DNA of 64,000 nucleotides from Gammaproteobacteria bacterium. Its GTDB lineage: Bacteria; Pseudomonadota; Gammaproteobacteria; SZUA-229. Numbering within the stretch: position 1 is the first letter of the stretch; every line of letters begins with the position of its first letter. Position numbers and translations under genes: made by a program. The stretch is taken from positions 62,001 to 126,000 of the forward strand of contig JAOULX010000006.1 of NCBI GenBank assembly GCA_029881795.1, in the 5' to 3' direction. The notes under the pieces were generated by a model that was not told the DNA's origin, did not search any database, and saw only the letters and a list, made by a program, of their open reading frames with translations. Of this stretch, positions 24,617 through 36,369 are shown one piece after another.

Positions 24617-25450
24617 ATGAATTATTCTAAAATTAAACCCACAAAGAAAAATCCTATTAGCGTTGTTAATGGAGATACTCGAGACCTCATAAAGAGTTTG
24701 CCCGATAACTCCGTGCAATGTGTAATTACATCACCTCCTTACTGGGGAGTTAGAGACTATGGAGTTGAAAATCAAATAGGCGCAGAGCCAGATATTAAAG
24801 ATTATATTAAAGATTTGGTTGAGGTGTTTTCAGAAGTGCGGCGTGTTCTTAAAGATGATGGTACATTTTGGTTAAATATAGCTAATACTTATACCTCCGG
24901 AGGGCGAAAATGGCGTCAGAAGGACTCAAAAAATAAAAATCGTGGCATGTCATATAGACCACCGACACCTGAAGGCCTCAAAAAGAAAGATTTAATTGGG
25001 GTTGCATGGATGCTTGCAATGGAATGTCAAAAAGAAGGCTGGTATTTAAGAAATGATATTATTTGGCATAAACCTAACTGCCAGCCTGAGAGTGTACGTG
25101 ATAGACTCACAGTATCTCATGAATATGTATTTATGTTCACTAAATCTGAAAAATATTTATTTAATCAGCAGGCTATAAAAGAGCCTACGGCTGATGGAAA
25201 ATCTACAAGAAATAAGAGAACTGTTTGGTCGGTAAACACAGAACCCTTTCCTGATGCTCATTTTGCAGTATTCCCTCCATCATTAATTGAACCCTGTATG
25301 CTTTCAGGAACCAATGAGGGTGATACTGTCTTAGATCCATTTTTTGGTGCAGGAACTGTTGGGCTAGTAGCTAAGTCACTAAATAGAAAGTGTATTGGTT
25401 TAGAACTTAACCCAGATTATATTGACATTATAAATAAACGAATAAGTTAA
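24617..25450 (+). CDS. Type II DNA methyltransferase, SPPY (N4-cytosine type), beta class
   Basis: 277 residues. The catalytic motif VITSPPYWGV (residues about 37-46) is near the N-terminus and the AdoMet-binding motif DPFFGAGTVGL (about 240-250) near the C-terminus, so the order IV then I marks the beta class. SPPY rather than DPPY favours N4-cytosine methylation. The frame opens with GTG at 24614 immediately followed by ATG at 24617; I chose the ATG. The 3' end overlaps that of the convergent endonuclease gene by 4 bp, the usual tight pairing of a restriction-modification system. It should protect the endonuclease target, which I infer to be CCCGGG-like from the similarity of the partner to SmaI. 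Confidence 0.93.
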   Translation: MNYSKIKPTKKNPISVVNGDTRDLIKSLPDNSVQCVITSPPYWGVRDYGVENQIGAEPDIKDYIKDLVEVFSEVRRVLKDDGTFWLNIANTYTSGGRKWRQKDSKNKNRGMSYRPPTPEGLKKKDLIGVAWMLAMECQKEGWYLRNDIIWHKPNCQPESVRDRLTVSHEYVFMFTKSEKYLFNQQAIKEPTADGKSTRNKRTVWSVNTEPFPDAHFAVFPPSLIEPCMLSGTNEGDTVLDPFFGAGTVGLVAKSLNRKCIGLELNPDYIDIINKRIS

Positions 25451-26214
25451 CTTTTAACTTTAAAAGACCAAGTAGCATGAACAACGCAGTATTCTTTTAA
25501 TAGATTTTTTATTTGTAGCTTGCGTTCACCTCCACCGTCGAAATATAAGCTATATTTAAGTTTTTTATCCACATCTCTAATATAGCAATAACCAGGCTTT
25601 GGGTATTGTTTACTTTCAAGCCTCATTTCAAGCTCGCCTTTACTGGCCTCAAGCAAGAGGTCTTTAGGTATTTCAACTAACTCATATCTCCACGTGCTTG
25701 GGCCTTTTTCAAGAGCTCTTAAAGTAAATATTTTTTCATAGTTATTTAGATGACTAAGATATAAAACCATTAAATTTTTAAGATCTGATGGATTATCACC
25801 CCATTCGCCTTTACCTAATTCCATAAATTTACTGACCCAGATTTTTTCTTCCTTTATATTTTTGTCAGCTTGTGTTTTTAATGAAATTCTAACCGATTTT
25901 ACTTCAATATCATGGCCGGGGTTTCCCTTAGGTGCTAGCCTTGAATTTTGATTATCAGATTTGAATGCTTGATCTAACGCATATTCAAATTTATCTTTTG
26001 TAAAAGGTTCTGCAGAAAAGGTATGGTGAATTCTTAGAGAGTCACCAATATTTTGAATTATTGTCTCGTTAACAAAGTCCTTATTTAAAAGCTTGTGTGA
26101 ATACGATGATTCAAATGATGTAATTATTTTTGATATCCAGAATAACTGGCCTTGAGTAAGAGAGTTTAGTTTTGTAATTAGCTGTGATATTAGTTTACTT
26201 TTAGATAGTTTCAT
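25447..26214 (-). CDS. SmaI-like type II restriction endonuclease
   Basis: 255 residues, close to the length I remember for R.SmaI (about 247). From memory, these stretches are near-identical to SmaI: GNPGHDI (97-103), SLKTQADKNI (111-120; ALKTEAAKNI in SmaI), VSKFMELGKGEW (127-138), the YEKIFTLR segment, VEIPKDLLLEA (180-190), KPGYCYI and SLYFDGGGERKLQIK (222-236). PGHD followed by SLK about nine residues later fits a PD-(D/E)xK-type core with an altered acidic position. It should cut unmethylated CCCGGG or a related site. It is the last gene of a minus-strand operon, 2 bp after the HEPN gene, and is convergent with the methyltransferase. The alignment is recalled, not computed. Confidence 0.88.
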   Translation of the reverse strand: MKLSKSKLISQLITKLNSLTQGQLFWISKIITSFESSYSHKLLNKDFVNETIIQNIGDSLRIHHTFSAEPFTKDKFEYALDQAFKSDNQNSRLAPKGNPGHDIEVKSVRISLKTQADKNIKEEKIWVSKFMELGKGEWGDNPSDLKNLMVLYLSHLNNYEKIFTLRALEKGPSTWRYELVEIPKDLLLEASKGELEMRLESKQYPKPGYCYIRDVDKKLKYSLYFDGGGERKLQIKNLLKEYCVVHATWSFKVKS

Positions 26215-26216
26215 TT

Positions 26217-26918
26217 TTATGATGGCCAGTACATGCTACCGCTATTTTTTGTAACATGTTTATGTAATACCTTATCAATAAATTGTACAAAATCTATAAT
26301 ATTTCTTAGATTTACATTTACATCTTGGTATGTAAGGTTGATGTTGACAACTTCATGAGCGATGGATGTCCGAGTGTCTGAGAATGATTTTAGAATAAAC
26401 TTAAAATCCCTTTTTCCTACTCGATTCACTTCATTGAATATATGGTTAATCCCAAAGCGTCTAAATGCCTTAAGTAAATTATCCTCGGAAGGATATTTTT
26501 TGTCAGCAATATATTCACTTTGATGTATGACCTTTTTTATTTTAGTACTATTGTCATGCAAAAGTTTACTTTGGCTATTTCTCATTACTTTTTTCATTAG
26601 TGAGTATTCATCACCATTGACAATAAAAGACTTATAGGCGTTTATGTTTTTATTAATTATCGCCATGTTTATGAGTTCACTTGGGAGTAGGTTTAAATTG
26701 CAATTATTCTTATGCAGCATGGTTAACCAATCTTCAAAAATTGCTTTAATATAATCTTCAAGAGCAGCAGAAGATTGAAAAAACGCTGATTTAAAAACAC
26801 ATTGCATTATGTCATATGGAATTTTATTCTTCTTCAAAGATGCAGTCTTTGATTGTGAAATAAAGTGTTTTATTGCTTTCTCACAGTCGCAGCGAGCAGA
26901 GCTTTTTCTGTAGGGCAT
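26217..26918 (-). CDS. HEPN-domain protein (putative RNase), restriction-island
   Basis: 233 residues, basic and helical with no signal peptide. Near the C-terminus SFSDTRTSIAHEVVNINLTY contains R183-x4-H188 (RTSIAH), the Rx4-6H active-site motif of HEPN ribonucleases, on a helix with the usual preceding Asp. The N-terminal half (FFQSSAALEDYIKAIFEDW) also looks like the opening helix pair of RiboL-PSP-HEPN or MAE_28990-type proteins. It is the middle gene of a three-gene operon: 1 bp after the DUF262 gene and 2 bp before the endonuclease. A HEPN protein beside DUF262 is a known pairing in defence islands; HEPN proteins usually cut RNA. Base composition is clearly more AT-rich than the flanking chromosome. 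Confidence 0.75.
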   Translation of the reverse strand: MPYRKSSARCDCEKAIKHFISQSKTASLKKNKIPYDIMQCVFKSAFFQSSAALEDYIKAIFEDWLTMLHKNNCNLNLLPSELINMAIINKNINAYKSFIVNGDEYSLMKKVMRNSQSKLLHDNSTKIKKVIHQSEYIADKKYPSEDNLLKAFRRFGINHIFNEVNRVGKRDFKFILKSFSDTRTSIAHEVVNINLTYQDVNVNLRNIIDFVQFIDKVLHKHVTKNSGSMYWPS

Positions 26919-26919
26919 C

Positions 26920-28038
26920 TTAGTTTATATGTTTTTTTATTAGTTTTTTTACTTGGTTAATTCTATGTTTTACATTAGCGGTCGCACTCGTCCCTACAGA
27001 TATTGCAGTACTAAATTTTTCATCATTCAATAGTTGATGATATTCAATTAAAAAATTATTTTTATTAAATTTTGAGATATTTCTTTTTGTTAGACTCGTA
27101 CTGCTAAAGCCAATCATAACGGCATCAAATAAAGCAGAGTTAATGCTCTTATTGTAGGTGTTCTTGTTTTTGTCATAAGTTCTAAATGCTGCGTGATCAA
27201 AAACATCATGAACTAATTCAATAGTTGATAAGAATAATGTCTTCCATTTTAGGCTTTCTTCTGGAGTCAGGTTTGAATGTTTTTCACAAAACGTATCTAG
27301 GAAGGTTTTCAATGGTTTTTTATAAGATCTAAGCTCTACTAAGAGAGAGAAATATCTTAATATTAATTCGCTTCCTTTCATACGGTTGTCATTCTTATAG
27401 CCAGTAATTTTTTTCCATATCTTTTCTTCTGCAAGCTGATCGATTAGATTTATCAGTTCGCCATGATAGACACCATGCCGAATTTCCTGGTGATTAAGCT
27501 GAACTGCCCCAGTATTTAGCCTCTCAAATACATCCATTTTGATTTGTGGGTGTGTCTCTTTTAATATTGTGATACAGCGCAATGTTCTATTAAGGATATG
27601 ACGTTTTATTCTTGGGTCTAAATTGCTACACAGACTTCCATTTAATTCAGGATATGTTGTTAGTCCTTGCAGTTCAAAGTCATCATTAAGGAATAGGTTT
27701 ATTGATGTCAGACGTTGATTGCCATCAATTACAGCAAGGGTTTCATTCTTTTCTTGATTCAAGTAAATTACTGGGATAGGGCATTGAATAATCAAAGATT
27801 CTATCAACTTTGATGCTTGTGTTCTGTTCCAAACATAACTCCTTTGAAATTTAGGTACAAAAATAGTTTGATTATTTAAATAATCATTTAATGTTCCTAT
27901 AGAAAAATCATAACTTTCAGTATGTAATCGACGTTTCTCTGGTGATATGTTTAAAACTTCTAAGTCTGCAGGTTTATCTTCAATTGGGAATAAGATGTCA
28001 GCTAGTGATTTAGATTTGGTTTCTTTTTTTCTTGCCAT
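26920..28038 (-). CDS. DUF262 (ParB/Srx-like, GmrS-type N-terminal) protein
   Basis: 372 residues. DUF262 hallmarks are KFQRSYVWNR (63-72), VIDGNQRLTSI (103-113; the DGQQR nucleotide-binding motif with Asn for the first Gln) and FERLNTGAVQLNHQEIR (171-187). In GmrSD/BrxU-type modification-dependent restriction enzymes DUF262 binds NTP and is joined to an HNH DUF1524 domain; this protein ends after a helical region with no HNH motif, so any nuclease activity would have to come from the neighbouring HEPN protein or endonuclease. It is the first gene of the operon; the ATG at 28038 follows a 364-bp AT-rich region that must hold the promoter. Low GC suggests horizontal transfer. Confidence 0.87.
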   Translation of the reverse strand: MARKKETKSKSLADILFPIEDKPADLEVLNISPEKRRLHTESYDFSIGTLNDYLNNQTIFVPKFQRSYVWNRTQASKLIESLIIQCPIPVIYLNQEKNETLAVIDGNQRLTSINLFLNDDFELQGLTTYPELNGSLCSNLDPRIKRHILNRTLRCITILKETHPQIKMDVFERLNTGAVQLNHQEIRHGVYHGELINLIDQLAEEKIWKKITGYKNDNRMKGSELILRYFSLLVELRSYKKPLKTFLDTFCEKHSNLTPEESLKWKTLFLSTIELVHDVFDHAAFRTYDKNKNTYNKSINSALFDAVMIGFSSTSLTKRNISKFNKNNFLIEYHQLLNDEKFSTAISVGTSATANVKHRINQVKKLIKKHIN

Positions 28039-28799: not shown

Positions 28800-29414
28800 T
28801 TAAGTATTTTTTATTACCTTCCAGGCGGCCTTTAAATAGATAAACATGGAGATAATGGTAAGCACCGCAGCGACGATTAGCAGGGCTTCTCCGGTGCTGA
28901 ATACTGGCAGGCTGAAAAGGTCGTGCTGATACAGCAGCAGTAAGATGGCGCTCATTTGTGCGAATGTTTTGACTTTTCCAATCATTGATACGGCAACATT
29001 GGCGCTTTGTCCCAGTTCTGCCATCCATTCGCGCAGTGCTGATATGGTGATTTCACGGCCGATAATGATGATGGAGGAGATGACGATGAGTAAGTTATCG
29101 GCATGGGCGTAAACCAGCAGTATTAATGCGGTTGATACCATCAGTTTGTCGGCGACTGGGTCCAGGAAGGCTCCAAAGGGTGATGACTGGCCGAGTTTGC
29201 GAGCCAGATAGCCATCAAACCAGTCGGTGATAGCAGCAAGACAAAAAAGCGCCGCACAGGCTAGATTAGACCAGCTCTCGTTATATAGAAATACCAGTAC
29301 AAGTATTGGTATCATCAGTATTCTGCTGAAGGTTAAGCTATTGGGTATGTTCCACATTAATCTGTCTGCCTGTTGTATCGGCTCATTATACTGATGTTTG
29401 CTGAGATTCGTCAT
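28800..29414 (-). CDS. pgsA: CDP-diacylglycerol--glycerol-3-phosphate 3-phosphatidyltransferase
   Basis: Inner-membrane enzyme of phosphatidylglycerol synthesis. The CDP-alcohol phosphotransferase signature DGx2ARx8Gx3Dx3D is exact in DWFDGYLARKLG and then GAFLDPVADK (residues about 64-90). WNIPNSLTFSRILMIP matches the usual PgsA N-terminus, and four to five further hydrophobic helices follow. The ATG at 29414 has AAGG six bases upstream and gives 204 residues, with about 19 extra N-terminal residues; the ATG at 29357 (MWNIPN) is the alternative that matches E. coli PgsA better. The tRNA-Gly, -Cys and -Leu genes follow in the same direction. Confidence 0.96.
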   Translation of the reverse strand: MTNLSKHQYNEPIQQADRLMWNIPNSLTFSRILMIPILVLVFLYNESWSNLACAALFCLAAITDWFDGYLARKLGQSSPFGAFLDPVADKLMVSTALILLVYAHADNLLIVISSIIIIGREITISALREWMAELGQSANVAVSMIGKVKTFAQMSAILLLLYQHDLFSLPVFSTGEALLIVAAVLTIISMFIYLKAAWKVIKNT

Positions 29415-29502: not shown

Positions 29503-29859
29503 ATGGCAATTTTATTACAACTGGTTGATCGGGTAGTGACGTCCAAGCTGGATCTGGACCAAGATATTTTAACGGTGGGCAGGGACCGGGTTAATGATCT
29601 TGTGATTGAAGATATTGCTGTCAGCGGTTTGCATGCGCAGCTAGAACGGGAAGAGGACTCTTATTATGAGGATCATTTCCGTTATTTTTTACACGATATG
29701 GGCAGTACAAACGGCTCTTTTATTAATGGTGAAAGAATTCTCGGTCGGCAGGAGTTAAAGAACAACGACACGGTAAAAATAGGCTGGAATGAATTCAAGT
29801 TTATTGGTGATGATTATGACAAGCATGAGGCCACAGCGCATATTTTAACCGGGCAATAA
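29503..29859 (+). CDS. FHA-domain phosphothreonine-binding protein
   Basis: 118 residues made almost entirely of one forkhead-associated domain: LTVGRDRVNDLVIEDIAVSG (residues about 24-43, with the phosphate-binding Arg and Ser), LHAQL, and LHDMGSTNGSFINGERI (about 63-79). FHA domains bind phosphothreonine peptides. Divergent from pgsA, it sits 134 bp upstream of a phosphorylation-dependent partner-switching operon on the same strand, which gives a plausible signalling context. No kinase of the Hanks type is visible in the window. Confidence 0.92.
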   Translation: MAILLQLVDRVVTSKLDLDQDILTVGRDRVNDLVIEDIAVSGLHAQLEREEDSYYEDHFRYFLHDMGSTNGSFINGERILGRQELKNNDTVKIGWNEFKFIGDDYDKHEATAHILTGQ

Positions 29860-29993
29860 TCTTTTTTTGATGTGTTAACGGCTGTTTTGATAAATTTGCG
29901 TATTTTTCATGATTTTTTATAGCTTTGGAGCTAAATATATCGCTTATTTGAGCTATAAAGTAAACATGATTTTTCAGGATGAGACAGGGTAGT

Positions 29994-30887
29994 ATGGCAA
30001 AAGGCAGTGTTTTAATTGTAGATGATGAAGAAATTAATCGGATGTTGTTAAAGGAGTATCTGATTACTGCTGAGATTGATCATGCTGAAGCGTCAAACGG
30101 CACTGAGGCGCTTGAAATTTTAAACCGCGAACCGCAGCGTTTTTCAGCTGTTTTGTTAGACCGCATGATGCCGGATATGGATGGGCTGAGTGTACTCAAG
30201 CAAATCAAAAGCACGGAATCTTTAAAAAATATCCCCGTTATAATGCAAACAGCTAAGGCCATGAAGGAAGAGGTCCGTGAGGGGCTGGAGTGTGGCTCAT
30301 ATTATTATCTGACTAAACCGTTTGATAAAAAAACCTTGCTGACGGTATTAAAAGCGGCGATTGATCAGTTTTTCACCCATGGCTCGTTAATTGCCGAGCT
30401 CCAGGAGACATCTGATTCGTTATCACTGTTGCAGGAAGGCCGCTTTGAACTGGCAACACTTGAGGAGGCGCGAAATTTATCTAAGTTGCTGGCGTTAAGT
30501 TGTCCGCAGCCGGCTAAGATGGTAACCGGTATCTCTGAGTTGTTAATCAATGCTATTGAGCACGGCAATATGGCAATTGGCTTTGAGGAAAAAACCGATT
30601 TGCTTAAATCAGAGCAGCTATATGAAGAAATAAACAGGCGTCTGACACTTGACGAATATAAGGACAAACGGGTGACTGTTGAATACAAACGATCTGATCA
30701 CGAAATTCAGTTCATTATTAGTGACTGTGGTGATGGGTTTGATTATGAAAAGTATTTAAATATCGATTTAAGTGAAGTGTTGGGCTCACACGGTCGCGGT
30801 ATTGCAATGGCCAGAATACTGAGCTTTTCAGATATTATATATTCGGCAGGCGGTAGACAGGTTACTGCAATATTAAAACTTCAGTGA
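29994..30887 (+). CDS. Response regulator with C-terminal anti-sigma-type HATPase
   Basis: 297 residues. A receiver domain (about 1-125) has SVLIVDDEEINR, the phospho-acceptor in VLLDRMMPDMDG and TKPF with the conserved Lys. The C-terminal half (about 145-297) reads as a HATPase_c_2 domain of the RsbW/RsbT type: GISELLINAIEHGN is the N-box, FIISDCGDGFD is the G1 box and GSHGRGIAMARIL is the G2 box. So phosphorylation of the receiver probably controls a serine kinase or anti-anti-sigma switch. The frame opens at 29979, but ATG 29994 has AGGG upstream and gives MAKGSVLI, so I used it. First gene of the partner-switch/MCE operon. Confidence 0.88.
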   Translation: MAKGSVLIVDDEEINRMLLKEYLITAEIDHAEASNGTEALEILNREPQRFSAVLLDRMMPDMDGLSVLKQIKSTESLKNIPVIMQTAKAMKEEVREGLECGSYYYLTKPFDKKTLLTVLKAAIDQFFTHGSLIAELQETSDSLSLLQEGRFELATLEEARNLSKLLALSCPQPAKMVTGISELLINAIEHGNMAIGFEEKTDLLKSEQLYEEINRRLTLDEYKDKRVTVEYKRSDHEIQFIISDCGDGFDYEKYLNIDLSEVLGSHGRGIAMARILSFSDIIYSAGGRQVTAILKLQ

Positions 30888-30926
30888 TACTTGTTACAAA
30901 AGGGCTTCAGTTAAATAGGATGTGCA

Positions 30927-32579
30927 ATGATTGAGTCCATTAAACCCACAGATCTACCTTCTCCTCCACAGACTGCTATTAATGTTATTAAGGCCTGTTC
31001 AGACGATTCCGTCGATTTTTCTATCATCAGTTCGATTGTTACTAATGATCCGCAGTTAACCGCCGAAGTTTTACGCATGGTTAATTCGGCATTTTATGCC
31101 CGCAGCGATGCTATCAGTTCATTAAATCGGGCAATTTCTGTTATCGGCGTTAAAAGTTTACGGAATCTGTGTCTTTGTTTATCGGTAAAAGAGGTGTTTA
31201 CAGCCAGTGATTTTGACAGTGGCTTTCTGAATGACTTTTGGACCGATAGTGTGTTTCGGGCTGTGTCTGCCAAGCATCTGGCGGAGTTAACGGGTAAAGA
31301 TGCTGATGAGTGTTTTACGGCAGGACTGTTACAAGATTTTGGTCTGCTAATTCTGGTTTATCTCTATCCCGATAAAATCAGTAGCTGGTATTCCTTACGC
31401 CAGCTAACACCGGATTTCCGCCTGAGTAAAGAGCCCGCTGTATTCAAATACTCGCATGTCGATATTTTTAAAATGATCGGTCAGCAATGGTCATTACCAG
31501 CCTCGATAGTGGATCCGATTTCTGCACACCACCAGTGTCAGCCGGGTGAGTTTTCAGATGTCTGTCAGATTTTAAATGCCGCGGACTGGTTCGCCTATGT
31601 GATCAGTTCTGAAAATGTTGAGGAGGCCGCCGCCGCGACTAAAAAACAGCTGGCGCAGTCGATCTCTTTTAGCGAAGAAAAAGTGGATAACTGTCTGGCT
31701 AAAATCACAGCTTCTGTCAGCCAGGCTGCTGATGCGCTGGGTATTGATATCAATCAGGTCACTGATTATGAAGACTTATTGAAGCAGAGTAATATTCGTC
31801 TGGCTGAAGATAACCTGGATATTCAGGAATTAAACTGGCAGCTGCAGCAAACAATGGCTGAAAGGGACAAGCTGGCGCAGGCATTAAATCAGGAAATTGA
31901 GCTGGCTACCGAAATTCAGGAAAGTCTGTTACCCGATGACGAGCGTCTGCCAGTTTATGGTTTTAATCTGCCGGCTCGGCAATTATCCGGCGACTTTTAT
32001 GATTACCAGCAACTTAAAGATGGCAGCATTTTATTTTGTCTTGCCGATGTTTCAGGTAAAGGGGTGAATGCCTCTTTGCTAATGGTTAAGGTCAGCAGCC
32101 TGTTCCATTGTCTTGGTAAATATATCCCTGATATTGAAAAACTGATCAGGATGATCAATATTGAGCTGGCCGAAACCTCGATCAGGGGTATGTTTGTGAC
32201 ATTCGTTTGCGGCAAGTATAATCCTGCCAATGGCAAACTGGATGTCATCAATGCCGGCCATCTTCCTGCTCTGATTGTCAGTGAAGATAACAGCTTGCGG
32301 ATTGAAGCGGGTTCCATGCCGCTAGGTATAGAAACGGAAACTGTTTTTAAAGCCGAATCGTATCTGTTAAAGCAGTCGAGTTTATATTTGTTCAGCGACG
32401 GCATTACCGAGTCGCATATCGATGGTAAAGAACTTGGTCTGCAAGGCCTCATCGATATATTAAAACAAATGAAAGCATTACCGGGCACTGAAAAAATTAA
32501 GCAATTAGAAGAAATGTTTAAATCAGCTGCAACTAGTGCGCACGATGATATGACGCTGCTGATCGTGGAAGGAAACTAG
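30927..32579 (+). CDS. HDOD-domain PP2C (SpoIIE-type) serine phosphatase
   Basis: 550 residues. N-terminal HDOD domain (about 8-240): LPSPPQTAINVI, SIVTNDPQLTAEVLRMVNSAFYA (read as two parts), RAISVIGVKSLRN and GLLQDFGLLIL. A coiled-coil linker (about 270-330) with AEDNLDIQELNWQLQQ leads to a PP2C-like SpoIIE domain (about 340-550): LSGDFYDYQQLKDG, CLADVSGKGVNASLLM, INAGHLPAL, LFSDGITES and HDDMTLLIVEG, with the metal-binding Asp residues in place. By analogy with RsbU/SpoIIE it should dephosphorylate the STAS protein encoded two genes downstream. It ends 4 bp before the kinase gene. Confidence 0.93.
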   Translation: MIESIKPTDLPSPPQTAINVIKACSDDSVDFSIISSIVTNDPQLTAEVLRMVNSAFYARSDAISSLNRAISVIGVKSLRNLCLCLSVKEVFTASDFDSGFLNDFWTDSVFRAVSAKHLAELTGKDADECFTAGLLQDFGLLILVYLYPDKISSWYSLRQLTPDFRLSKEPAVFKYSHVDIFKMIGQQWSLPASIVDPISAHHQCQPGEFSDVCQILNAADWFAYVISSENVEEAAAATKKQLAQSISFSEEKVDNCLAKITASVSQAADALGIDINQVTDYEDLLKQSNIRLAEDNLDIQELNWQLQQTMAERDKLAQALNQEIELATEIQESLLPDDERLPVYGFNLPARQLSGDFYDYQQLKDGSILFCLADVSGKGVNASLLMVKVSSLFHCLGKYIPDIEKLIRMINIELAETSIRGMFVTFVCGKYNPANGKLDVINAGHLPALIVSEDNSLRIEAGSMPLGIETETVFKAESYLLKQSSLYLFSDGITESHIDGKELGLQGLIDILKQMKALPGTEKIKQLEEMFKSAATSAHDDMTLLIVEGN

Positions 32580-32583
32580 GCTC

Positions 32584-33006
32584 TTGAGTGCTGTTCATTT
32601 TCAGTATAAAGCAGACAGTGCCTCGCTCAGTGATATCAGAGAGGATCTACGCAATGAGTTATCTCTAAATGGTATTGATAAAGAGCAGCAGGACAAAATT
32701 ATTGTGGCGGTTAATGAGGTTTGTATGAATATTATATGCCACGCCAGTAATGGTCATTACAGTGGTAACATCGATATTAATATAAGCTTCGAAGCAGATA
32801 AATTATTGATTGAAGTTGATGATGATGCAGAGCCAGCTAATCTTGACAGGCTCAAGTTGATAAAAAAAGATAAACTCAGTCCTGGTGGCCTGGGTTTGTT
32901 TTTTATAGATGAAATTATGGACGACGTGGTGTACTCACATAGAGAGTCATCCACTGGTAACAGCGTACGGATGATAAAGGTATTAAATAAACAGCATGAA
33001 ATATGA
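32584..33006 (+). CDS. RsbW-like anti-sigma serine kinase (HATPase_c_2)
   Basis: 140 residues with one GHKL ATPase domain. AVNEVCMNIICHAS is the N-box (Glu and Asn in place), LLIEVDDDAEPAN fits the G1 region, and SPGGLGLFFI is the G2 lid. In partner-switching systems this kind of kinase phosphorylates a Ser on a STAS antagonist. The only in-frame start is TTG at 32584, 4 bp after the phosphatase stop, with TAGG upstream. The gene overlaps the STAS gene by 11 bp, so kinase and substrate are co-translated. No sigma factor gene is nearby, which suggests that the partner is something else. Confidence 0.9.
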   Translation: MSAVHFQYKADSASLSDIREDLRNELSLNGIDKEQQDKIIVAVNEVCMNIICHASNGHYSGNIDINISFEADKLLIEVDDDAEPANLDRLKLIKKDKLSPGGLGLFFIDEIMDDVVYSHRESSTGNSVRMIKVLNKQHEI

Positions 33007-33295
33007 AATTACGAAGAACACTAGTCATACACTACTGAGTTTGTCCGGTGATATCGATTTGCATTCATCCTCTGAACTCAGAAAACAGATCATAAGCATC
33101 TGTAAAACTAAAGCGCCATTGCAGATTGATCTTGAGAAAGTCACTTATTTAGACAGTTCCGGTGTTGCCTGTTTTGTAGAGGCTTATCAACTGACTAAGA
33201 AAAACGACAGTGAATTCTGGCTAATTAATATCAGTAACCCGGTCATGCAAGTGATAAAACTGGCCAGACTCGATAGCGTTTTTCCTATCCGATAG
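32996..33295 (+). CDS. STAS-domain protein (anti-sigma antagonist or MlaB-like)
   Basis: 99 residues forming one STAS domain. VTYLDSSGVACFVEAYQL (residues 49-66) holds the phospho-acceptor region; by comparison with SpoIIAA, where the second Ser of DSSG is the phosphorylated one, Ser55 is the candidate. ISNPVMQVIKLARLDSVFPI is the usual C-terminal helix and strand. E. coli MlaB is also a STAS protein and binds the ATPase MlaF; this gene sits immediately upstream of MlaE- and MlaF-like genes (7 bp). It could therefore serve two partners, the RsbW-like kinase and the transporter ATPase. Confidence 0.92.
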   Translation: MKYEITKNTSHTLLSLSGDIDLHSSSELRKQIISICKTKAPLQIDLEKVTYLDSSGVACFVEAYQLTKKNDSEFWLINISNPVMQVIKLARLDSVFPIR

Positions 33296-33302
33296 GTTTA
33301 AA

Positions 33303-34097
33303 ATGACGGCTAAAGCATTTTCTGCATTTATCGGTACAAAAACAGTCGCCTTTGTTGCTGAAGCAGGCTACTTTTTTCTGCTGCTATATGAAAGCCTGTA
33401 CTGGATAGTCGTCGGGCGGTTTAAAAAGCAGCCTGTTCGGCTGCATCTGGTCGCATCTGAAGGTTTAAAAGTCGGTATTCAGGCGATTCCGATTGTCACC
33501 GTGCTTTGTTTTTCAGTCGGTGTGATGCTGGCTATACAGGGTATTGAAACACTTAAGTTGTTTGGTGCTGAGTCGCAGGTAATATTCGGTATTACCTTCT
33601 CAATGACACGGGAATTCTCACCGTTAATCGTTGGTATTCTGATTGCGGGGCGTTCTGGTTCTGCCATCACTGCAAAAATTGGTACCATGCTGGGCGCGCA
33701 GGAAATCGATGCACTCAGTGTTATCGGCATCAATCCGGTCAGGTATCTGGTATCACCGGTGTTACTGGCTATGTTAATTATGCTGCCGGCACTGACTTTT
33801 TTAGGTGATATAGCCGGTTTGTTAGGCGGTGCTTTGTATTCTACGATACGGCTTGATATGACGTTTGATAATTATCTGGTGAGAACCTTTGATGTATTGA
33901 GTATTATGGATCTGATGCAAGGTTTGATTAAAAGTGTGATGTTTTCTTTGCTGATAACCATTATAGCGGCCAGTAATGGCTTTCAGGTTAAAGGCGGTGC
34001 AGAAGGTGTCGGTGTTGCAACCACACGCTCTGTGGTTCTGGCTATTAGCAGTATTGTAATGGCAGATATGATTTTTACTTATTTCATTAGTCGATAA
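33303..34097 (+). CDS. MlaE-family ABC transporter permease
   Basis: 264 residues, integral inner membrane protein with about five to six hydrophobic helices. MlaE hallmarks are FSVGVMLAIQG, GITFSMTREFSPLIVGILIAGRSGSAITA (read as consecutive segments), GTMLGAQEIDALSVIGINP and the RYLVSPVLLAM stretch. The family moves phospholipids or other hydrophobic compounds between the inner membrane and an MCE protein. An AGGT seven bases upstream supports the ATG at 33303. The transporter genes are packed with 4-bp gaps or overlaps. Similar permeases are LinK in Sphingobium and Ttg2B/MlaE in Pseudomonas and E. coli. Confidence 0.94.
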   Translation: MTAKAFSAFIGTKTVAFVAEAGYFFLLLYESLYWIVVGRFKKQPVRLHLVASEGLKVGIQAIPIVTVLCFSVGVMLAIQGIETLKLFGAESQVIFGITFSMTREFSPLIVGILIAGRSGSAITAKIGTMLGAQEIDALSVIGINPVRYLVSPVLLAMLIMLPALTFLGDIAGLLGGALYSTIRLDMTFDNYLVRTFDVLSIMDLMQGLIKSVMFSLLITIIAASNGFQVKGGAEGVGVATTRSVVLAISSIVMADMIFTYFISR

Positions 34098-34101
34098 AAT
34101 A

Positions 34102-34890
34102 ATGGACGAGATAATAAAAGTATCGGCTTTGACAACGCATTACGGCACTAGCAAAGTACTCAATTCAATAGATTTATCCATTCGCCGTGGTGAGATTATG
34201 GTCATAATGGGTGGCAGTGGGTCGGGTAAGAGTACCTTGCTGCGTCATATTTTGTCACTCAATCACCCGAGCTCTGGCAGCATCGAAATTCTGGGTAAAG
34301 ATATCTGGAAAATTGATACTGAAGAGCTCAATGAATTACGCAAGAAAATAGGCGTGGCATTTCAGGGCGGTGCGCTATTTGGCTCAATGACTGTGGAAGA
34401 CAATATTGCCTTTCCGTTAAGGGAACTGACCAATCTTGATGAGGAAACGATAAAAATAATGACCCGGATAAAACTGGAAATTGTTAATCTTTCCGGCTTT
34501 GGTCATTATATGCCGTCGCAATTATCGGGTGGCATGTTAAAACGTGCAGCTGTCGCCAGAGCTATTATTATGGACCCGCAGATACTTTTTTTTGATGAGC
34601 CTTCTGCCGGGCTTGACCCTGTGGTTGCCGCAGAACTGGATGATCTTATACTGAACTTGCGTGATGCAATGAATATAACCATTGTCGTGGTGACCCATGA
34701 ACTCGACAGTGCTTATAAAATTGCTGACAGAATTACAGTGATTAATAAAGGTGATTTACTGTTAGTAGGCACGGTTGATGAAATCAAGTCGTCTGATAAT
34801 CAGAAAGTTCAGGACTTGATAAACAGAACACCAAGAAAGCAGTCAATTAATGCAGAAGAATACCTGTCAAGGCTTACAGATAATATATGA
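34102..34890 (+). CDS. MlaF-like ABC transporter ATPase
   Basis: 262-residue nucleotide-binding subunit. Walker A is GGSGSGKST (about 36-44), the Q-loop is VAFQGGALFGSMTV, the signature is QLSGGMLKRAAVARAI and Walker B is ILFFDEPSAGLDPV, followed by VVTHELDSA with the switch His. This pattern matches MlaF, where signature LSGGM replaces LSGGQ. It powers the MCE transporter. In E. coli MlaF the STAS protein MlaB binds the ATPase and is needed for activity, so the upstream STAS gene is the natural partner here. Its stop overlaps the MCE gene start by 4 bp. Confidence 0.96.
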   Translation: MDEIIKVSALTTHYGTSKVLNSIDLSIRRGEIMVIMGGSGSGKSTLLRHILSLNHPSSGSIEILGKDIWKIDTEELNELRKKIGVAFQGGALFGSMTVEDNIAFPLRELTNLDEETIKIMTRIKLEIVNLSGFGHYMPSQLSGGMLKRAAVARAIIMDPQILFFDEPSAGLDPVVAAELDDLILNLRDAMNITIVVVTHELDSAYKIADRITVINKGDLLLVGTVDEIKSSDNQKVQDLINRTPRKQSINAEEYLSRLTDNI

Positions 34891-35786
34891 AACAAGATAC
34901 GATTAATTACACCCTGGTTGGCAGCTTTGTCGTCTCAATAAGTATTGTATTGCTTGTTGTGCTGTATCTGTTAACCGGACGGGTGGCCAATTCCGACAAC
35001 TACTATACCGTGCTTGATAATGTTGAAGGTATTAACAATGGTTCTGCAGTAACTTATAACGGTTATAAAATTGGTCAGCTCACCGATATAACACCGGCCT
35101 TTGAAAACAACAGAACACGTTTTAAACTCACTCTGTCAATTAAGGCCGGTTGGAGAGTTACCGCAGACAGTACAATAATGGTAACCAAATCTGGTTTATT
35201 ATCGGATGCCAAGCTAAACATCACAGAGGGACAATCGACAGAGTTATTAACGGCAAACAGCACGATTAAAGGTCTGCCGGGTAATGATGTGATGGCTTCG
35301 GTAAAAAATATTGCGGATAAGATAAATAACCTGTCAGCCGAAGTGATTACACCGATGGTTGATCAGTTGGCAATAAATATGGATGCGTTCAGTAAAAGTA
35401 TCTCATCTGATATCCCTAAACTCACAGAAAATATTAATTTGCTGGTTATAAAACTGCAAAAGAATTCAGAAGTTATCGATGCGTTTTTTAATGAAACTAA
35501 TCAGAAAAACATTGCCAGTGTGATCGGCAGGGCAGATTCAATGATCCGTAATCTTGAAGCGGTATCCGTTGATATCAATCAGCTGGTGTCGCTTAACAAA
35601 CAACAGGTCGGCGAATCTATTCAGGGCGTAAATGCGACGGCTGCACTATTAAATGAAAAACTTGAAATCATACTGAATCAGATTGAATCCAGCAGTCAGA
35701 ACATTAATGATTTTAGTAATCAGATTAAAAATAATCCGGGTGTTATTATCAGAAGTAATCCATTAACCGATCCGGCGCTCAGGTAG
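34887..35786 (+). CDS. MCE-domain substrate-binding protein (MlaD-like)
   Basis: 299 residues. One N-terminal transmembrane anchor (about 9-30, GSFVVSISIVLLVVLYLLTG) is followed by a single MCE domain (about 38-120) with YYTVLDNVEGINNGSAVTY, GYKIGQLTDI and DSTIMVTKSGLLSDAKLNI, and then a long helical region (about 135-299). That tail is longer than in E. coli MlaD (about 180 residues), closer to LinM or Ttg2C-like proteins. It should form a hexameric ring in the periplasm that receives lipids from the permease. It starts inside the ATPase gene and ends 4 bp before the lipoprotein gene. Confidence 0.94.
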   Translation: MKQDTINYTLVGSFVVSISIVLLVVLYLLTGRVANSDNYYTVLDNVEGINNGSAVTYNGYKIGQLTDITPAFENNRTRFKLTLSIKAGWRVTADSTIMVTKSGLLSDAKLNITEGQSTELLTANSTIKGLPGNDVMASVKNIADKINNLSAEVITPMVDQLAINMDAFSKSISSDIPKLTENINLLVIKLQKNSEVIDAFFNETNQKNIASVIGRADSMIRNLEAVSVDINQLVSLNKQQVGESIQGVNATAALLNEKLEIILNQIESSSQNINDFSNQIKNNPGVIIRSNPLTDPALR

Positions 35787-35790
35787 AAAT

Positions 35791-36369
35791 ATGAAGTTTA
35801 TCCTCTTAATGTCAGTATTGTTTTTAGCCGGCTGTGGTTCGGTGGCAACTCCGGACAGCCATTATTATCGGCTGGAAGAGTTAATAAATCCGCAATCGCA
35901 ATCAACGCTTCTTCAATCTGATGTGTCAGTTTCGTTGTTTAAACTCAGTGGCATGTTAAATAACCGTAACTTGTTGTTCACTACAGAGGACAGGCCGAAC
36001 GAAGTGGTACCGCTTCATTATCACCTCTGGCATGATGCACTGGGAAATATACTGACGCGTCAGTTTATCGATTATTTAAAACTATCGGCCGGTAAACATC
36101 AGGTCTCAGCTTATCGTTATACATCGGTTGATGGATTGCATGTGGTGGTCACGCTAGAGCGTATGGAAATTCGTTATGCTGACGATAGCCGGTTGCATGT
36201 AAAACTCAATGCCAGAATCATAAACAGTAAAGGCAGTGTCTTGCTGGATAAAGATTATGAGAATTCTGAAGTCTCTGAAAGCAGTGATATCTATCAGTTA
36301 GTCAGTCGTTATAACGCGGTGCTGAGAAAAACATATCATCAGCTGCTGGAAGATTTAGTCACGTTATAA
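35791..36369 (+). CDS. ABC-type transport auxiliary lipoprotein (PqiC/LinN-like)
   Basis: 192 residues. A lipoprotein signal (MKFILLMSVLFLAGCGS) has the lipobox LAGC with Cys15. After that come DSHYYRLEE and the DUF330-type (ABC_trans_aux) pattern: WHDALGNILTRQFIDYL in the middle and a GLHVVVTLERMEI strand. Relatives are PqiC (YmbA) of E. coli and LinN of the gamma-HCH uptake system LinKLMN. The protein would be anchored in the outer membrane and take up cargo from the MCE ring, in place of MlaC or MlaA, neither of which is present. Last gene of the operon; its 3' end overlaps the convergent DsrE-like gene by 6 bp. Confidence 0.88.
   Translation: MKFILLMSVLFLAGCGSVATPDSHYYRLEELINPQSQSTLLQSDVSVSLFKLSGMLNNRNLLFTTEDRPNEVVPLHYHLWHDALGNILTRQFIDYLKLSAGKHQVSAYRYTSVDGLHVVVTLERMEIRYADDSRLHVKLNARIINSKGSVLLDKDYENSEVSESSDIYQLVSRYNAVLRKTYHQLLEDLVTL

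Follow-up and report, generated by a model that had tools for sequence, protein, structure and literature searches.

Does a serine-phosphorylation partner switch govern a lipid transporter that is encoded directly behind it? This question is raised by a run of eight plus-strand genes (29979-36369) in a 64,000-nucleotide stretch of gammaproteobacterial DNA, hereafter the window (GenBank assembly GCA_029881795.1, contig JAOULX010000006.1, positions 62,001 to 126,000), in which the genes for a PP2C phosphatase, an RsbW-like kinase and a STAS protein stand before those of an MCE transporter. We consider it probable, at roughly 70%, that this operon encodes a transporter of the Mla-Pqi (Mpc-like) type whose STAS subunit is controlled by a partner switch of its own, acting through serine phosphorylation. 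The parts are of known kinds, and no description of this wiring turned up in the open-licence literature that we searched: no paper combining RsbW and MlaE was found there, and wider terms gave only the E. coli MlaFB paper.

Gene content and conserved order of the locus

Gene identities were assigned from open reading frame calls and Pfam profile matches of the window proteins. The switch comprises an HDOD-PP2C phosphatase of the SpoIIE/RsbU type with 550 aa (30927-32579; HDOD 3.2e-47, SpoIIE/PP2C 1.1e-35), a 140-aa serine kinase resembling RsbW and SpoIIAB (32584-33006; HATPase_c_2 1.7e-22) and a 99-aa STAS protein of the RsbV/SpoIIAA type (32996-33295; STAS 1.2e-18). The transporter genes follow, encoding an MlaE-like permease of 264 aa (33303-34097; MlaE 4e-65), an MlaF-like ATPase of 262 aa (34102-34890; ABC_tran 2e-32), a 299-aa MlaD-like MCE protein with the long C-terminal region of the Mpc type (34887-35786; MlaD 1.4e-12) and a PqiC-like ABC_trans_aux lipoprotein of 192 aa (35791-36369; ABC_trans_aux 1.6e-8). 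The run opens with the gene for a REC-HATPase_c_2 protein of 302 aa (29979-30887; Response_reg 5.7e-27, HATPase_c_2 4.3e-07), and the successive intergenic gaps measure 39, 4, -11, 7, 4, -4 and 4 bases. A sequence-only reading of the window had counted nine adjacent, packed genes; every gene that it named is present and eight are tightly packed, the ninth, for a 118-aa FHA-domain protein (29503-29859, plus strand; Pfam FHA 3.8e-19), falling outside the run because it lies 119 bases upstream of the REC-HATPase gene. The start given there for the REC-HATPase gene, 29994, is a second in-frame ATG and an alternative to the beginning of the open reading frame at 29979.

A scan for the kinase across 84,980 GTDB species returned 268 relatives, and loci were counted for the best 80. 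The genes for phosphatase, kinase and STAS protein are followed by Mla genes in 66 of these 80 loci, the STAS gene standing before mlaE in 61 and before mlaF in 5; no Mla gene comes after the STAS gene in 12, and the locus ends after it in 2. Among the relatives, the 18 highest-ranking homologues of the kinase (E < 1e-13) all belong to a PP2C-RsbW-STAS set followed by Mla genes. A genome-neighbourhood search, proposed when the locus was first read, thus found the order to recur, and because it is conserved the gene arrangement exceeds chance. Carriers include Thiotrichaceae, Ectothiorhodospiraceae, Thiodiazotropha, Methylococcaceae, one member of the Burkholderiales, a few metagenome-assembled genomes (MAGs) labelled Alphaproteobacteria or Rhodospirillaceae, and a cultured organism, Methylohalomonas lacus HMT 1 (L151). 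Phosphatase and kinase are fused into a single protein in 12 loci, the input domain of the phosphatase is HDOD, GAF or REC depending on the locus, and the switch also precedes genes in the canonical order mlaF-E-D with an MlaD of 150 aa. In the window's own genus, one genome (G003) carries the whole set in two copies and two others carry none of it. Three GTDB contigs titled Klebsiella pneumoniae MAG (L100, L122, L123) contain the cluster as well; they branch among environmental gammaproteobacteria, and their titles are probably wrong.

We weighed whether the FHA and REC-HATPase genes are core parts of the system and rejected this, since they occur at this place only in the window's genus. For the same reason the two-component signal that had been suggested as an input appears peripheral, other lineages using the HDOD, GAF or REC domains of the phosphatase. 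The REC-HATPase protein would be either a lineage-specific input or a second RsbW-like ATPase.

A second mla operon, canonical and with its own MlaB, is located on another contig of the source genome (2.93 Mb, 27 contigs), so the window contributes a further transporter, one that belongs to the Mla-Pqi (Mpc) group. Canonical Mla traits, namely mlaC in the operon and a short MlaD, are absent from the window, which is nearer to Mpc, the chimeric Mla-Pqi system of Brucella abortus (PMC12436622): both have MlaE/F-like ABC parts, a long MlaD, a PqiC-like lipoprotein and no MlaC. In Brucella, however, the permease MpcE carries the STAS domain as a fusion, and neither a kinase nor a phosphatase has been described (PMC12436622), whereas here the STAS protein has a gene of its own. 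With E. coli MlaFEDB the window shares MlaE, MlaF, MlaD and a STAS protein, and it differs in lacking mlaC and mlaA genes and in having a long MlaD and a PqiC-like lipoprotein, as well as a kinase and a phosphatase of its own. We know of no kinase for MlaB in E. coli.

Switch and transporter in linked and unlinked genomes and in another class

Co-occurrence was assessed in 369 genomes of the class, with cut-offs of E < 1e-28 for the kinase and E < 1e-100 for the switch-type MlaF. The kinase was found in 55 genomes and the switch-type MlaF in 56, with both present in 53, the kinase alone in 2 and MlaF alone in 3 (counts not corrected for kinship). Most of this co-occurrence is linkage, and the unlinked cases are the informative ones. 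Orphan switches, which have no adjacent Mla genes, were present in 12 genomes; in a tree they nest among the Mla-linked switches, and at least five changes are forced by well-supported branches. The Mpc-type permease is missing from all 12 genomes, and nine of them hold elsewhere an mlaF-mlaE-mlaD operon without a STAS gene. The MlaF proteins of these nine operons score 392-432 bits against the switch-type model, as compared with 211-237 bits for classic MlaF genes, several of which have their own MlaB. Such STAS-less mlaFED operons were found almost only alongside a switch. Because nine of the 12 orphan-switch genomes contain a STAS-less operon with a switch-type MlaF, we infer that these transporters draw, in trans, on the STAS protein that the switch supplies. 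Several orphan switches (L098, L102, L110, L133, L148, L152, L155) adjoin an FHA gene and a PPM-type phosphatase gene on the opposite strand, and some of these have long CHASE2-like proteins.

A second linkage was seen in another class, in 16 loci of one family (f205), where genes for YhdP, MlaE, a degenerate MlaF, MlaD and a TPR lipoprotein are followed by those for RsbW, STAS and UbiD. The degenerate ATP-binding protein matches ABC_tran at 0.0042, which is under the cut-off, and in L312, L313, L315, L316 and others the MlaF-like protein is without a recognisable P-loop region. The order is reversed relative to the window, the RsbW-STAS pair coming after the MCE genes, and no PP2C gene stands beside this pair in the family. 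We lean, by a little, towards serine-phosphorylation partner switching being a general and repeatedly evolved post-translational on/off control of MCE lipid transporters, one that would act in cis on transporters of the Mpc and canonical types and in trans on mlaFED operons lacking a STAS gene, and that would have been acquired independently by a divergent MCE operon.

The locus might instead hold an ordinary anti-sigma partner switch, with the kinase as anti-sigma factor and the STAS protein as its antagonist, whose only tie to the transporter is a common transcript. The nearest solved proteins agree with this, since the best match of the kinase is RsbW (5.3e-8), its structure and sequence being nearest to SpoIIAB/RsbW, and the STAS protein is nearest to RsbV, TM1442 and SpoIIAA by both measures; so do three orphan-switch genomes that retain the switch without a switch-type MlaF. 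With RsbU/RsbW/RsbV and SpoIIE/SpoIIAB/SpoIIAA of Bacillus the window has in common a PP2C phosphatase, a HATPase_c_2 serine kinase and a small STAS protein with a DS(S/T)G phosphosite. Unlike those systems, it contains no sigma factor gene, and the next genes are those of an MCE lipid transporter. The lack of a sigma factor gene nearby, remarked on from the window alone, extends to the entire 172-kb contig, all eight matches in the genome being on other contigs. A sigma-factor target was accordingly judged unlikely, and we take the locus to work like an RsbW-type switch and not as an anti-sigma operon. An anti-sigma function also fits poorly with the Mla genes that come directly after the switch in most of the 80 loci, and with a switch-type MlaF that tracks the kinase even when unlinked. 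Furthermore, the window's transporter operon has no other STAS gene, yet its MlaF keeps the MlaB-contact motif. We therefore hold the anti-sigma explanation to be unlikely.

The STAS protein as probable kinase substrate and MlaF partner

The STAS phosphosite D53-S54-S55-G56 is invariant in all 111 distinct proteins. In the kinase, which is of the GHKL type, Glu45 and Asn49 of the N-box and the adenine-binding Asp80 are invariant in 118 of 118 homologues, while the customary DxGxG box reads D-x-A. The metal-binding Asp356, Asp491, Asp540 and Asp541 of the PP2C domain are invariant in 107 of 107. The C-terminal handshake of MlaF is likewise kept (Tyr254 in 102/103 proteins, Leu258 in 103/103); the best solved match of this protein is P. 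aeruginosa MlaF (9.1e-55), and by structure too it comes closest to known MlaF. When aligned to E. coli, STAS Ser54 corresponds to MlaB Thr52, and MlaF Tyr254 and Leu258 correspond to Tyr261 and Leu265, which insert between MlaF and MlaB in the structure (PMC7367683). In E. coli, MlaF remains in the complex only when MlaB is present, Thr52 of MlaB lies near the centre of the MlaF-MlaB interface, and T52E weakens MlaF binding (PMC7367683). Phosphorylation of Thr52 was proposed in structural and biochemical work of 2016 and 2020, the kinase not being known (PMC5016091, PMC7367683), and the regulation of MlaB has been termed an open question (PMC7367683). At 99 aa, the window STAS protein stops directly after its last strand, as does E. 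coli MlaB (97 aa); most of its relatives, at about 110 aa, carry a further C-terminal helix, which SpoIIAA also has.

AlphaFold2 was applied to natural chains in which neighbouring genes are in frame and the intervening stop was read as Gln, with register-checked alignments. The kinase-STAS chain (L171) reached a predicted local distance difference test (pLDDT) value of 93.7 and a predicted template modelling score (pTM) of 0.89, and the STAS-MlaF chain (L189), which includes 42 disordered linker residues, reached 87.3 and 0.83. By our own estimate, random domain placement would give a pTM near the larger domain's share, that is roughly 0.5 for kinase-STAS and 0.6 for STAS-MlaF, so that both placements look confident in the models. 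Structure predictions of these two pairs had been suggested as a check of the locus; they gave confident single-chain models, in which the contacts are predicted ones. Structure searches with the read-through models returned single-domain matches only. By homology to SpoIIAA-SpoIIAB and MlaB-MlaF, Ser54 would lie within both interfaces. Mutual-information analysis of STAS-MlaF and STAS-kinase coevolution gave scattered top pairs, the effective sequences (56 and 99) being too few.

This underpowered analysis would be compatible with a STAS protein that does not bind MlaF, the genes being brought together by shared regulation of envelope functions. We regard this as very improbable, as MlaF assemblies contain MlaB-like STAS subunits as an integral part, the STAS gene stands directly before mlaE or mlaF, the STAS-MlaF model is confident, and STAS-less mlaFED operons keep company almost exclusively with the switch.

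The switch could also control a different target, for example c-di-GMP (cyclic dimeric GMP) or motility in the manner of SypA, HsbA and SiaC, while the STAS protein acts separately as a constitutive MlaB unaffected by phosphorylation. Known gammaproteobacterial STAS switches do have non-sigma targets (PMC8256260). SypE/SypA of Vibrio fischeri and SiaABC and HsbR/HsbA of Pseudomonas share PP2C and RsbW-like domains with the window, and their outputs, so far as established or suspected, concern biofilm, c-di-GMP and motility rather than a transporter. Some switches lie near CHASE2, FHA and PPM-phosphatase genes, and the source genome holds other STAS proteins. These remaining STAS genes are located, however, in clusters of their own (chemotaxis, HsbR-like, SiaABCD-like or canonical Mla). 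In addition, the phosphosite and the MlaF contact fall on the same helical face, as at Thr52 of E. coli MlaB, and phosphorylation should therefore disturb the contact with MlaF. Such a separate target appears to us about as doubtful as the anti-sigma function, if a shade less so. A whole-genome search found the window kinase to be the sole dedicated RsbW-like kinase and detected four clear PP2C/SpoIIE proteins, the HDOD-PP2C of the operon among them; the others, named by their neighbours, are a REC-PP2C-HATPase adjoining its own STAS gene (HsbR/HsbA-like), one within a SiaABCD-like cluster and a REC-PP2C. The HsbR/HsbA-like pair and the SiaABCD-like cluster represent two further partner switches of this genome (G000:C10:156920-158800, G000:C5:37063-39500).

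In the partner-switched transporter that we propose, unphosphorylated STAS would take the role of MlaB, bind the helical subdomain and C-terminal handshake of MlaF, and permit MlaFED assembly and ATP hydrolysis. That the STAS protein is the partner of MlaF is highly likely, and phosphorylation on Ser54 by the RsbW-like kinase is the step we would hold most firmly; the kinase may also compete for the same STAS face. Phospho-STAS would probably leave MlaF and halt transport, with PP2C reversing the effect, as the T52E substitution and the logic of partner switches suggest. The HDOD-PP2C would dephosphorylate STAS when its HDOD sensor (GAF or REC elsewhere) is engaged and so restore transport, the signal presumably entering through these phosphatase domains. 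The idea that STAS phosphorylation gates the lipid transporter, first put forward from the sequence, thus gains strong comparative support from gene order, co-occurrence, invariant residues, STAS-less operons, the f205 loci and the models; the direction of control and the effect on lipid traffic we infer.

Several observations weigh against this proposal. Shared ancestry explains part of the linkage and co-occurrence. Three of the 12 orphan-switch genomes (G423, G430, G432) show no switch-type MlaF, so a switch can persist without such a target; here either another explanation for the switch is needed or the assemblies are incomplete, and because some genomes keep the switch without a matching MlaF, it may have further targets. 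Two genomes (G119, locus L293; G280, locus L294) have a transporter with a switch-type MlaF and no kinase in the genome, and the STAS gene is also absent near the transporter; in G064, a third with MlaF and no kinase, the locus is at a contig edge. The STAS sequence is closer to RsbV/SpoIIAA than to MlaB, so that a protein of the RsbV type would here occupy the position of MlaB. Finally, E. coli MlaB T52A still binds and ATPase activity is lost (PMC5016091), so Thr52 may have some function apart from being phosphorylated.

Many bacteria, one of them cultured, encode the kinase and the phosphatase alongside the presumed substrate and the transporter, which makes the question of MlaB regulation directly testable. 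If correct, the proposal would add an ABC transporter to the targets of partner switching, for the first time to our knowledge, and a signal could act on inter-membrane lipid traffic quickly, at the post-translational level.

Neighbouring genes

A promoter and terminator scan yielded sites no more frequent than in shuffled sequences. Upstream, on the minus strand and divergent from the operon, lies a gene for a CDP-alcohol phosphatidyltransferase (28800-29414), PgsA-like and thus of phospholipid synthesis. Beyond it, also on the minus strand (25447-28038), are genes for a SmaI-like restriction endonuclease (7e-73), a HEPN_RiboL-PSP protein and a GmrSD_N (DUF262) protein, a three-gene set that looks like a defence cassette.

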